This document shows, one piece after another, positions 1,001 through 41,402 of a stretch of DNA of 64,000 nucleotides. The first letter of the stretch is position 1; every line of letters starts with the position of its first letter. This stretch comes from Isoetes taiwanensis (Eukaryota; Streptophyta; Lycopodiopsida; Isoetales; Isoetaceae). The stretch lies in contig JAJEKV010000057.1 of assembly GCA_021234155.1 (NCBI GenBank), positions 6,729,821 through 6,793,820 of the forward strand, given 5' to 3'. The notes under the pieces are model-generated. The model was not told the DNA's origin. It saw only the letters and a program-made list of their open reading frames with translations, and did no database searches. A program made the translations under genes and the position numbers.

Positions 1001-1045
1001 ATTGTATATATATAACAGATATCCTTATATATATACAATTATATT
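1001..1045. repeat. TA-rich joint between divergent units U0 and U1
   Basis: ATAATTGTATATATA and TATATATACAATTAT form an inverted repeat around a short core containing ATATCC. U0 reads away to the left and U1 to the right, so two 5' ends of the same family face each other back to back across this tract. Confidence 0.7.
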
Positions 1046-1275
1046 GGGTGCCACAAATGATGTAGAGTCTCAAATGGTGTAGAGATTATGCCACAAATTT
1101 TTGGTAGAGATTGATCTCGGCCGTCCACCTTTTGAGATGGACGGTCCAGACGGTGCCACCTCGTAACTCCCCAAGCATCCCTCTTGTTGGTGTACCAAAA
1201 TATTGGTTCAGATTGATCTCGGCCGTCCATCTATGAGATGAACGGCCCACAACAAAAGCCCCAAATAAGCCCCCT
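1046..1275 (+). repeat. U1 subterminal palindrome region
   Basis: Two copies of GTAGAGATTGATCTCGGCCG or a close variant are followed by GTCCA...GAGATG(G/A)ACGG hairpin-forming sequences. The block ends with ACAAAAGCCCCAAATAAG. Homologous blocks open U2, U3 and U4. Confidence 0.75.
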
Positions 1276-2165
1276 TGATGCGAGCTCGAAACTTGAATCA
1301 GAAATCCGGTTGCCCTTTTGTGCGAGACCCGGTCCCCGATCATCGATGTCTCTTCCCGCATCTTCCCTTTGACTCTGTTTTTCAAGAGCTGGAAATCTGC
1401 GCATTTTTTGCCGTCGGAGATGCGGTGGAGCTCGTACAAGAAAGAGCATTTCCGCATAACAATGGCCCTTTTTCTTATAAGTACGCAGCCCAATCAAAGA
1501 CGGGCTTAGCTCAAATAAATTCTGTTCCCGATCCCGCTTTGGGGCTACAAATTTTCATTTAAGTAGCCCCTTTGCTTGGGGTACTGTACATCATGCATTC
1601 ACTTCTTAACCGAGAGTTAATGTGGATTCTATTACAAAGGGTGCCGTCGAAGCTAACCGGCAAGAACTCGGCCGAGTTCTTTAGCATGCCAACAATCGCG
1701 AGACAAGGACCTCGGTGATCAACTGCGTTGCTTTTGTCGGCTCTATTTTAATACTAAGATTTTTCACTCTTTCCAACAGATAACCATTGCCCGGCTAAGG
1801 TGGCGGCTTGTGACAGATCTGATTGATCTAAGATGGATCGACCTTCGCCATTAAGCGCCAATCTGGGCGGGATTATCTTGAAAAAGGTATGGTTCCCTAT
1901 TTGCATAACATATCGAAAATTTTTAAGGAGCAAAATGCAAACTCCCAACCTTCGATCTCCTCCTTTGTTTTGTTCCATATAAGCCCTGTTTTGGAAACGT
2001 TTGGTCCTATGGATGTCCTTCTATGATCCCCCGCTTCTATCCATCGGATTTTTAACCACAGCCAAGACCGGCATAGTTTCCCATTTGGATTTTGTCTCGT
2101 ATTTTGATGCAAATATTCTATTTTTCTAGTATCGATCTTCATCAGTGTTGTAAATCATGCGCAAA

Positions 2166-2806
2166 AAACCTTCAGGTTGTTGAGACACAAAGGTGATTTG
2201 CAATATTTAAAGCTAGTTTGGATGCTTTTGCGATTTGGGAGTGGCAATCTTTAACTTTGCATCTGTTGCGACATTTCTTAAAGTATTATTGAGTACCAAG
2301 AGAGGTCCACAAGATGTTTCCACGAAGTCACTTTGCAATGACCATTTGATTTGGAGAGGAACGGGCGGTCTCAATCGGTCGGTCTTGAGAAATTTTATAT
2401 GGTGATGTGCGTGTCCCGTATTATGAAAATACTCTAGTTTCTTTGCTCATGCTTTCACATCTTTTTAAGTATTAAGCCGGACCTTCTTTATAAATTAGGA
2501 TTTGGAGTTGACCTGCGTAGTAGCCGACATTGGTCTTGTGGTAAGTACACATGCTTCGTTTAAACTAATATATAAAGACTATGAAAAGTTTGGCTGGACT
2601 ATTCTAACGTTTTGCATTTGGGCGGGGGCCTTCCAAATGTGGGCAAATCATTCCTCTTAGTGCTCTATCTCCTCGCCGAAGTAATTGCAGATTATCTATT
2701 CACAATGTCATTGCCAAATTTAGCACAAATTGAGCAAAACCTTGAAGAATTGCGTCCAACTGCTGCTGATCTTCGTGGATTGGTGAAGGGAGCACATCTG
2801 GATAAG
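2166..2806 (+). pseudogene. Captured host exons of an unidentified gene (also in U4)
   Basis: 2166-2281 and 2513-2806 align with U4a at about 27482-27730. One exon ends at 2540 before GTAAGTAC. The next covers 2627-2806, exactly 60 codons, and is followed by GTAACT. It begins GLPNVGKS, which resembles a P-loop, and ends LRGLVKGAHLDK, with a hydrophobic stretch between. In U4 the same acceptor reads GGGCAG/GGCC; here the AG is replaced (GGGCGGGGGCC), so this copy's splice site is broken. U4 lacks about 146 internal bases of this exon. The parent gene is not recognised; the P-loop match may be accidental. Confidence 0.45.
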
Positions 2807-38527: not shown

Positions 38528-38637
38528 TATATATATATATATATATATATATATATATATATATATATATATATATATATATATATATATATATATATAT
38601 ATATATATATATATATATATATATATATATATATATA
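38528..38637. repeat. (TA)55 microsatellite
   Basis: 110 bases of uninterrupted TA between the U4b 3' end (ACTTG) and U5 (GACTGGCC). The long open frames of alternating Tyr-Ile on both strands are artefacts of this repeat. Confidence 0.97.
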
Positions 38638-41316
38638 GACTGGCCTAGACTAATCCTTCTAACTAGCAGAAGCAAAATATCCAATATATTGACAACATAA
38701 GATCCATTAAGAATAAATATTGATCAGCTACCATGCGATGTTCCATATTCTAAAAATGTTGAGCCTAGATACTGACTGATTATTAATGCAACATATCATA
38801 CTGTAACATCAGAATTCCCTGAAATAATGGACAGCTATTTGCAAGCTGGACAGAATAAAACATAAGAATGGAATATCAGATGTTTAGGTCCATTATAAGC
38901 CATACTGCCGAATTTGAATTTTTTTGTGTCCAGGAGCGGATAAACTAAGCATGGCCATATGTGCTTCCAGATCATATCATTAAAAGGTGAGATACACTAT
39001 GAAAATATCATTGGCTTAAAACAGGAGTCTAGAATGTCGCCTAACAAGCTAAATAATTGCATCTGCTGGGAACGTAGCTCTGTTCCTGAATCTATGGCAT
39101 AGCCACAACTAAAACTAGAACTAGAGTAGAAGGATCATATTATTCCTCAATCCAGCAATAATATGTTAGAGCAACAATGCACCAAAGCTAAGAGAGTGTC
39201 CAAAACTAAAAAGCTTTAGGTATCTAGAACACCAAGATCACTGTATTTCTAGAGATGCAAACAATAGACCTCATAATCTAAACAGAGAACAACACAGTAA
39301 CAAGTATAGAAAAAATGGAACAGAGGCTTATAATGGTCACCAGCAAATGCATATGCTTTGAAAAACATAGAGAGACTTTGAGAAAAACTGAAGATGCAAG
39401 CATAATGATCCTAAGCACTTGTGTTCAACGCTTCAGAAACTAGATTTGTATGTTAGGCAACAAGGGAAATACAAACGAGTAAGAGACTGGATAAGAAAAA
39501 CATCTGATCGATCAAAACCTGGTTTAGCTGAATGTCCTGGTTTATCCTCTGAAATTTCGTGCTCCTTATTGTTGGAGAGCTCCATATTTCCACATTGTTT
39601 GCTGAAACTACATTTGCCCTGGGGGCACTAGTGCAGGGCAACAAATAAGGCATGAACTTCTTGATTGAACTGTCCAATATCCTTCTATTAGGACCAATGA
39701 TGTGCAACCTACAGAGTTTCATGTGCAATCCCATCTCGTCTAAGCAATCCTAACTATTTGGCCCTGGAATGGCCTCTGTTCTGGGAACACTAAAGTCGCA
39801 CAGCAATGCCAAAGCCTTACAGAACAGCTTACGATTCGCCATTATAAGGGGACGAATAGAATAATGATCTTAGGTATAGAGCCTATGCTGAACACTGTAC
39901 TGATCCGGATATAACTTAAGAAACCTAACTTAATCGCCCAATTACAGATGTATTACAAGAAAGAATCCATACACGTGTTTACCTGATGATTTTCATGGAA
40001 ATAGAAGAAATCCGAGCCACAGATCATGAATTTGCATGTAACCGAAAAGATGCCGTCAGTGCATCTGTTATAGATGTTCACAGCTGTAAAGAGGCAGCGA
40101 AACTGGAGTATCACCATGGCTAGGGTTTCGTGGCCATGCCCATTTCCGGAATAGAGAACTCAAAAAGATGCATTTGCATGTGATAACTATGTAAATGTGA
40201 GCTATTATTATATATTGTCCCTTTGTAATGTGATCTATATGGTACCCAAACGTTGGACATGCAAAGGGGGCACCCTCAAATGTTAGAAAATAATTTATCA
40301 AAGGACGTACCTCTTTTTGCTTCTAACATGCATATAATTAAAAAGTGTCCAAAAGCTACCAACGTTCAACTTTTTTAAGGCAAAAATGCCTTTCTCCTTT
40401 ATTTCCTCTTGGCCCCTTCTTTTTGCCACGTGCATGCAAAATAAGAATTAGGAAAAAGCAACAATGCAAGAAAAAGAGTCTTCTAGAACTCATATCAATT
40501 ATGATATCACATTGCTATAGAGAGAGACAAAACAATAGATATTGTATAATTGAAAGACCATATTTTGAGCATATTGTTCATATTGCAAACTGCCATCATG
40601 TTCTTGATTCAGATTAAACACTATGGACTCCCAAGTCATGTCCTTATATTGAACATAGTTGTCCAAGCATGACCCATGTACATGTAAGGGCAGAATCATT
40701 ATGGTCCAATCGGGCTCCTATGTAACTCAAAGCCATATACAAGAAATTTATTTTGCCCTCTTTAACAGGTCTGGTCATCAACCATGCTGCTACTCATTGA
40801 ACGCTGCTTAAATAGAAGATAAGATAGGCACATGCATTAAAGTACTTTCAATAAATTGGGCCAGACCACTATGCATTATGTCTAAAAAATAGTACATGGA
40901 GAAATATCATATTCATGTCTAAAATGCACTTCTAAGTCACATCCATAAATTCAACATAGTTGTCCAACCAGGACCCATGTATATATAAGGGCTATTAAAG
41001 TAGATAATCATTGTTATCTAACCGGCTTCGCATGTAAGCCCAAGCCATACACAAGACCTTTATTTTGCCTTAAAGCTTTAAGGGGTCTGGCCACACGTCG
41101 GCAAAAGGAAAATATAGGCTCAATTTGTCAGAGATATAAAGATTCTTAGAATACATGTTGAAAATACGGAAGCCATATACAAGACATTTATTTTGCCTTC
41201 AAGGGGTCTGGCCAAACATTATCAAAAGGAAACGATAGGCCCAAGGTATTTATTCATCAAGAGACACAAAGATAAAGCTTAGCTTAATGACTAACAATCA
41301 AACAAAAATTTATATT
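38638..41316. mobile_element. U5: segment between two long TA arrays
   Basis: About 2.7 kb bounded by (TA)55 and (TA)43. The left edge, TATAGACTGGCCTAGACTAA-TCC, matches the reverse complement of the F3 right edge (GGACCAGTTTAGGCCAGTC-TATA) at about 16 of 19 bases, so U5 may be a distant, inverted relative of the first 3.5 kb of F. The right part (40640-41250) holds three degenerate repeats. No gene is recognised; short frames at 39419-39734 on both strands are unconvincing. Confidence 0.45.
40640..41250. repeat. Three diverged repeats in U5
   Basis: Cores at about 40727, 41043 and 41171 share AAGCCATA(T/C)ACAAGA, TTTATTTTGCC and, in two of them, AAGGGGTCTGGCCA. The first two also share upstream GTTGTCCAA(G/C)CA-GACCCATGTA. 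Confidence 0.65.
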
Positions 41317-41402
41317 TATATATATATATATATATATATATATATATATATATATATATATATATATATATATATATATATATATATATATATATATATA
41401 TA
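41317..41402. repeat. (TA)43 microsatellite
   Basis: 86 bases of TA immediately 5' of the first base of F1 (CATGTGACTAGG). The same TA-CATGTGACTAGG joint, with a shorter TA tract, precedes F2 and F3. Confidence 0.97.

Follow-up and report, generated by a model that had tools for sequence, protein, structure and literature searches.

What are the long, gene-carrying sequences that lie end to end between TA microsatellites in the genome of Isoetes taiwanensis, and by what means have they spread? The question is raised by a stretch of 64,000 nucleotides (assembly GCA_021234155.1, contig JAJEKV010000057.1, here C1064, positions 6729821-6793820), referred to below as the window. A first-pass annotation had recognised in it at least seven units running from (TA)n-CAATTAT to ACTTG-(TA)n. 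Eight were found (U0 to U7), although U3/U4 and U5/U6 are tandem pairs, and the description of a mobile, TA-microsatellite-bounded family, arranged in non-nested arrays and non-autonomous as far as can be seen, holds. We conclude that the units are very probably non-autonomous Helitrons that strongly favour TA runs, in which they become stacked side by side without nesting. This conclusion is based on starts at A|TC in most of the elements sampled, ends at CTTG|T, the lack of visible terminal inverted repeats, host cargo, arrays in both orientations and a TA-bounded relative which encodes a RepHel protein.

Both terminal motifs are present as annotated and recur throughout the genome (1.658 Gb, 1110 contigs). 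The 5′ motif, (TA)5CAATTAT, has 686+671 exact matches (1357), compared to 1+0 for the reversed-pattern control, and the 3′ motif, AGTAYNNNNACTTGTATATATA, has 903+928 (1831), compared to 0+0. The shared, (TA)n-bounded motifs do not, however, mark the full extent of the units: their true start is to be placed about 15 nt upstream of CAATTAT, at a tag starting with TC and preceded by the A of a TA run. This A|TC tag (TCTCT, TCCT, TCTGT, TCAGT etc.) occurs in 26 of 36 5′ ends sampled from the window and seven chosen clusters, a sample which is not random. The tag tracks the internal subfamily and is therefore part of the element. Genome-wide, the strict pattern ATATCN{1,2}TTATATATATACAATTAT, that is ATATC-N1-2-T(TA)5CAATTAT, has 338+331 matches (669; reversed control 0), while BTCNNTTATATATATACAATTAT, which has a base other than A before the tag and covers two-base tags only, has just 7+8 (15). 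At the other end the units stop at CTTG|T, and the subfamilies have only their last 25 nt or so in common. The terminal identity CAA...TTG that had been proposed vanishes once the TC tag is included, and no terminal inverted repeat shared between the two ends, tag included, was seen on reading the ends, no dedicated search having been made.

These ends are close to those of Helitrons, which start with TC, end with CTRR, insert between A and T, have no inverted repeats and often carry a 3′ hairpin (PMC2575219, PMC4683698). Like the plant Helitrons of maize and rice (Mothra), the units have TC after an A, a T after the 3′ end and no inverted repeats, measure several kb, carry host gene fragments and share their genome with RepHel relatives. 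They differ in ending with CTTG rather than CTRR, in having, at 23 of 29 sampled ends, a 3′ hairpin that is weak or missing, in their TA-run boundaries and in a TA-rich 5′ terminus, TCNNT-(TA)5-CAATTAT. Some Helitrons are described as having no 3′ palindromes (PMC2575219), and CTTG-3′ ends beside a T, with no identifiable palindrome, are reported for Helraiser constructs deprived of the hairpin or of the entire right end, CTTG-3′ ends being also stated for maize Helitrons (PMC4778049).

The TA habitat had earlier suggested a link with the rice Micron elements. This no longer holds, as Micron is now classed with the SaTar elements (PMC5907723), which are of the Mutator-like element (MULE) type, and the units have Helitron-type ends and no terminal inverted repeats. 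Could the units nevertheless be MULEs that lack such repeats, a long, gene-carrying version of SaTar, Micron, TAFT or MuTAnT, with (TA)5 as a 10 bp target duplication? The habitat and the non-nested, TA-joined modular arrays are those described for SaTars of guayule and rice (PMC5907723), and the TA between ACTTG and CAATTAT is exactly 10 bp in 126 joints. The TC tag, on the other hand, lies outside (TA)5 in 669 of the 1357 5′ motifs, about half, which places (TA)5 inside the element, and two joints in the window hold a single TA. SaTars, moreover, are MULEs of 0.4-1.9 kb; those of guayule have terminal inverted repeats of 40-250 bp, and 11 of 15 guayule families show target duplications of 10 bp where they lie outside microsatellites (PMC5907723). 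No repeats of the 40-250 bp kind were seen on reading the unit ends, and the unit pieces scanned, a small sample, gave no MULE transposase match. MuTAnT of Medicago and TAFT of maize also target TA repeats (PMC4486113) but have MULE terminal inverted repeats (for TAFT, PMC4486113 and PMC5907723), together with a mudrA-like transposase in the case of MuTAnT (PMC4486113). A MULE origin is thus improbable. Stacking in TA microsatellites is known for MULEs (SaTar, PMC5907723; MuTAnT, PMC4486113), and the explanations offered in those accounts are MULE-specific; the word "helitron" is absent from the main text of the SaTar study (PMC5907723). In literature mainly outside subscription journals, no Helitron family in TA microsatellites was found at the level of titles and abstracts. 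Tandem Helitron insertions are already known (PMC5148889), and a 2025 review notes that Helitrons insert near Helitrons and that transposable elements generally land in microsatellites (PMC12477314).

On the 5′ side, the sites of insertion are consistent with entry between A and T. At C1:132039, C5:223984, C35:462508 and C55:40241 the 5′ flank is just a short TA run ahead of the tag. For C5:223984, six of eight paralogues of the left flank carry an empty site, GGAAAG-TATATA-TGCTGAAAC, and the filled copy reads GGAAAG-TATA|TCACTATATATATACAATTAT, so that its 5′ side is consistent with A|T insertion at the empty paralogues; the other two have a longer TA run and a different sequence at that spot. 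None of the loci examined for a target duplication, C5:223984 among them, has an insertion with both flanks outside TA. In several places (C1079, C366, C1032, C1055) the flank repeat of C5:223984 returns at intervals of 3.2-3.7 kb, and its TATATA site is used by the C5 unit and by two other TA-bounded sequences. Further TA-bounded sequences occupy similar sites (loci L081, L006, L079), one of which begins with TCATAATATATATAAAATTAC after (TA)n; the A|TC habit may be common to several families.

The short empty sites raise the possibility that the TA tracts are a product rather than a target, Helitrons entering wherever a short TATA occurs and the microsatellite then being lengthened by excision, repair or slippage at the A|T junction. 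Empty sites are indeed short (TATATA) compared to filled junctions, which reach (TA)55-57, and excision of the maize Helitron HelA2 is reported to give variable TA repeats (PMC10095026). Other TA-bounded families, however, occupy the same tracts, and joints are so frequent that tracts already present must have served more than once. That the tracts arose in this way is conceivable, although we lean against it, and it would complement rather than exclude a Helitron preference for TA runs.

The first-pass annotation saw no transposase and suggested looking for an autonomous member with the same ends. No transposase is visible in the parts of the window's units that were scanned, but a RepHel Helitron with similar ends, C1064:6820554-6830278, has its 5′ end 27 kb to the right of the window. 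RepHel genes are numerous in this genome: a PF14214 profile search gave 150 scored matches among 1813 candidates. The C1064 element is bounded on its 5′ side by (TA)n|TCCTTCTATATATATAATTATT and encodes, in the sense orientation, Rep (E 3.5e-21) and PIF1 (2.9e-50) domains with one in-frame stop. Its 3′ end comprises a hairpin, GGCGCCGGC-CCC-GCCGGCGCC, followed by AAATTCTTG|(TA)57, and the sequence beyond (TA)57 is that which flanks the 5′ end of U7. The hairpin is a perfect 9 bp, located 9 nt from the end and equalled by none of 300 shuffles. The hairpin expected of Helitrons is GC-rich and precedes the 3′ end by 10-12 nt; a hairpin is clear in this element and in six of the 29 unit ends sampled. 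TA-bounded, with a similar 5′ end and CTTG at its 3′ end, this element is the related RepHel-coding copy expected of a Helitron family and a possible relative of the units, although the likeness of the ends is short.

Its ends are found elsewhere too. The sequence AAATTCTTG(TA)5 has 55+59 matches genome-wide (114; control 0). Among the matches listed, 41 RepHel matches are split in the same manner as that of the C1064 copy. With 100 of the 114 places considered, five of these 41 are followed on their own strand by AAATTCTTG(TA)5 at a distance of 3.10-3.24 kb, and none has a copy in the 6 kb upstream or on the opposite strand. The autonomous-type 5′ motif occurs in four places genome-wide, and on C1029 the motif positions place it and the 3′ motif 7.66 kb apart. 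At C98:58.6 kb a CAATTAT unit adjoins, with (TA)n in between, AAATTCTTG and the end of a RepHel reading frame. Judged by the ends, a RepHel protein of the C1064 type may be what moves the units. The RepHel lineages on C1060, C1030, C1107 and C1018 were set aside as a source since they have no matching ends in the span examined. The one RepHel found inside a unit, on C140, was also rejected as the autonomous member: it is a broken, captured piece of 4.8 kb in antisense, and the locus to which it is 97.7% identical shows no matching ends over the span examined.

Several observations weigh against a Helitron origin. At the 5′ side, four of the 36 sampled ends adjoin ACTTG directly (three through (TA)5, one through (TA)4), six match neither the tagged nor the tagless form, and the 126 joints mentioned above (67+59 genome-wide) read ACTTG-(TA)5-CAATTAT with no TC tag. 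On several contigs two of these tagless joints lie in the same orientation 5-10 kb apart, like tandem copies; slippage between two TA tracts may have given rise to these joints, or else another kind of joining. At the 3′ side the Helitron CTRR is not found: 28 of 29 sampled ends have CTTG, in a sampling pattern that favours it, and one has CTTT, while the T that follows is not independent since the AGTAYNNNNACTTGTATATATA-type pattern requires a T after ACTTG. A clear hairpin is missing from 23 of these 29 ends, the six whose hairpin beats 95% of shuffles all belonging to one subfamily, so a hairpin conserved across the units was rejected. The right flank of C5:223984 differs from that of its paralogues; the empty-site match is therefore one-sided (5′) and no empty site spans both sides. 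As to the RepHel relatives, 36 of the 41 matches have no 3′ motif among the places listed, four of five RepHel loci examined have no unit-like ends in the span examined, and the C98 RepHel 3′ end does no better than shuffles in the hairpin scan (0.50), although its last 49 nt do fold. Finally, where the units resemble the RepHel Helitron, the 5′ match is an AT-rich stretch of about 20 nt and the 3′ match just four bases.

If the units are Helitrons, their spread might proceed as follows. A RepHel protein of the C1064 type would nick the TC end and one strand would be peeled off, to be inserted between the A and the T of TATATA or of a longer run without target duplication. Each insertion would keep TA on both sides, so that the next element could land beside rather than inside the previous one. 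The tracts might grow through slippage or through Helitron excision and repair, as is reported for maize HelA2 (Li and Dooner, cited in PMC10095026), a Helitron which likewise has a variable number of TA repeats at its site, although there they are an excision footprint at one locus and here the TA-bounded arrays are genome-wide. Pieces of genes could be captured when the 3′ stop signal is overlooked, which agrees with the weak 3′ hairpins.

A bolder and rather doubtful extension is that this Helitron lineage creates its own landing sites and that many TA microsatellites in this genome are transposition scars: insertion and excision by RepHel at A|T would grow (TA)n footprints, which would recruit more Helitrons and other TA-seekers and so build the gene-fragment arrays. 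That elements with Helitron ends also stack in this way suggests that such arrays owe their organisation to the tract and not to a single family of transposases. The stacking would tie Helitrons concretely to the origin or lengthening of TA microsatellites, would provide a simple route for placing captured exons side by side and uninterrupted, and could help to explain the spread of some TA repeats and gene fragments.

Arrays are not confined to the window. From the first 100 matches listed for each motif, 77 5′ places (contigs up to C102) and all 100 3′ places were paired with their neighbours, giving 47 candidate elements of 1.2-19.8 kb, the longer of which may cover more than one element. 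The same set includes 29 joints of at most 260 bp: 18 head-to-tail, six 3′-facing, four 5′-facing and one odd. Microsatellite-joined, non-nested arrays are thus present, 28 of the 29 joints being classifiable, and the proportion joined head-to-tail (18 of 28, the odd joint being dropped) is indistinguishable from random (two-sided p 0.18).

The cargo claim was correct as to exons. A protein-kinase exon lies in antisense at 16874-17350 of U3 (Pkinase, E 3e-17), and U4 has its copy. An exon in U5, copied in U6, matches diflavin flavoprotein structures (6h0d, E 3.7e-07) and, weakly, flavorubredoxin in NCBIfam (E 0.009); a Pfam scan of the three plus frames of U5 gave no match, U1, U2 and the minus frames of U5 not having been scanned whole. 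Flavodiiron genes are not known from flowering plants. Introns, also part of the claim, are indicated by one exon end with GTAAGT, since a "spliced" copy at C1033:8520 kb was rejected as proof, its gaps not matching splice sites. On C140 (139.5-148.3 kb) a unit contains the antisense RepHel piece of 4.8 kb, whose 97.7% identity to C1060 makes it, as judged from the sequences, a clear case of recent capture. Palindromic subterminal blocks, proposed as a general feature, were present in part: three of five units tested have inverted blocks (arms of at least 9 bp) within their first 350 bp and the remaining two do not. In one further unit (L026:6700-8700) there are long degenerate AGATTCCCCTAGATTCT repeats, a motif also present near the 3′ ends of short units of 1.4-1.8 kb on C112 and C140.

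For the inventory of units the window was extended by 7 kb on each side, U0 and U7 both reaching past its edges. Inside it, CAATTAT has its first base at 1004 (minus strand), 1036, 9882, 16369, 19751 and 23146, and ACTTG its last base at 9858, 16335, 19733, 23135, 38527 and 60491 (minus strand). U0 (1-1019, minus strand) has its 5′ end in a TCTGT tag at 1019 and its 3′ end near -2777, with CTTT instead of CTTG. It is joined head-to-head to U1 (1022-9858, plus strand) by one TA (1020-1021) separating the two TC tags. U1 begins TCCT-(TA)5-CAATTAT and ends with AGTACAAATACTTG; two of its pieces (2086-2268 and 2516-2646) are 79-87% similar to portions of U5/U6. After (TA)4 (9859-9866), U2 (9867-16335, plus) starts with the tag TCTCT and ends with AGTACAAAAACTTG, and the joint that follows (16336-16353), TATATATATATCCTTATA, contains an apparent TCCT tag remnant. 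U3 (16354-19733, plus; tag TCAGT) is separated by one TA from its tandem copy U4 (19736-23135, plus), and U4 from U5 (23146-30857, plus) by a tagless ACTTG-(TA)5-CAATTAT joint (23136-23145). The flavodiiron-type exon of U5 (about 25845-26105) precedes the GTAAGT. The 3′ end of U5 is truncated and fused to its tandem copy U6 (30858-38527, plus): no TA remains, and the final bases of U5 and about 70 bp of the 5′ end of U6 have been lost. A (TA)55 tract (38528-38637) follows U6. U7 (60491-64000, minus strand in the window) has its 3′ end at 60491 and its 5′ end, with a TCTGT tag, beyond the window at 66616; a copy of its 5′ part (62419-66623), with 94% identity, lies to the left of U0 (-6999 to -2812).

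The identity of the tandem pairs (95.4% for U3/U4, 97.0% for U5/U6) means that the window contains fewer independent elements than a count of eight implies. It also bears on the idea that the whole family is the old segmental duplication of one locus, the TA tracts being accidental breakpoints, since U3/U4, U5/U6 and the neighbouring reverse transcriptase-like (RT-like) units are indeed tandem copies. For the family this has next to no likelihood and is refuted, because the ends recur on many contigs with differing interiors: there are more than 1000 dispersed ends, and the 1.5 kb around the U5 exon has 21 full-length matches on many contigs (89-100% identity, query included) and another at 80%. 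Duplication is true only of the tandem pairs.

Between U6 and U7 lie other TA-bounded sequences. The span of the first-pass annotation includes, in addition to the units, a segment of 2.7 kb (38638-41316) between (TA)55 and (TA)43. On its left this segment ends much as the first RT-like module does when reversed (GACTGGCCTA). The RT-like array itself starts at 41403 and extends to 60470 as tandem units of 7.6 kb, two full and one cut, which are 95.8-96.7% identical where aligned and have TA at two internal boundaries. The first module reads (TA)CATGTGACTAGG...GGCCAGTC(TA) and has a weak SAP match; the second has long open reading frames with a YMDD motif and an RVT_1 match below the cut-off (E 0.0037). 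The other RT-like copy gave no Pfam reverse transcriptase match, and the reading frames gave weak matches only in PHROGs (a phage reverse transcriptase family, E 0.096) and none in NCBIfam. We take the tandem unit to be possibly a distant Penelope-like element. The end of the module, GGCCAGTC, is separated from U7 by (TA)10 (60471-60490), a position at which the copies of the module located at 44.9 and 52.6 kb show just TATATA.

Could the reverse transcriptase of these adjoining elements (41.4-60.5 kb) have mobilised the units? They share the TA habitat, and RT-like module ends lie, by eye, beside several unit insertions. No end sequence was seen in common between the modules and the units, however, and the units' A|TC start, like the RepHel element whose ends are similar, indicates a different mechanism. 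Spread driven by a Penelope-like or other reverse transcriptase was rejected on the grounds that no common ends were seen, and we regard it as very improbable. As judged by eye, module ends (GACTTATCAG... and the GGCCAGTC type) border several of the (TA)n tracts used by units, at loci L064, L061, L041 and L058 and at 38638 and 60470 in the window, and this module family may supply TA tracts which the units use.

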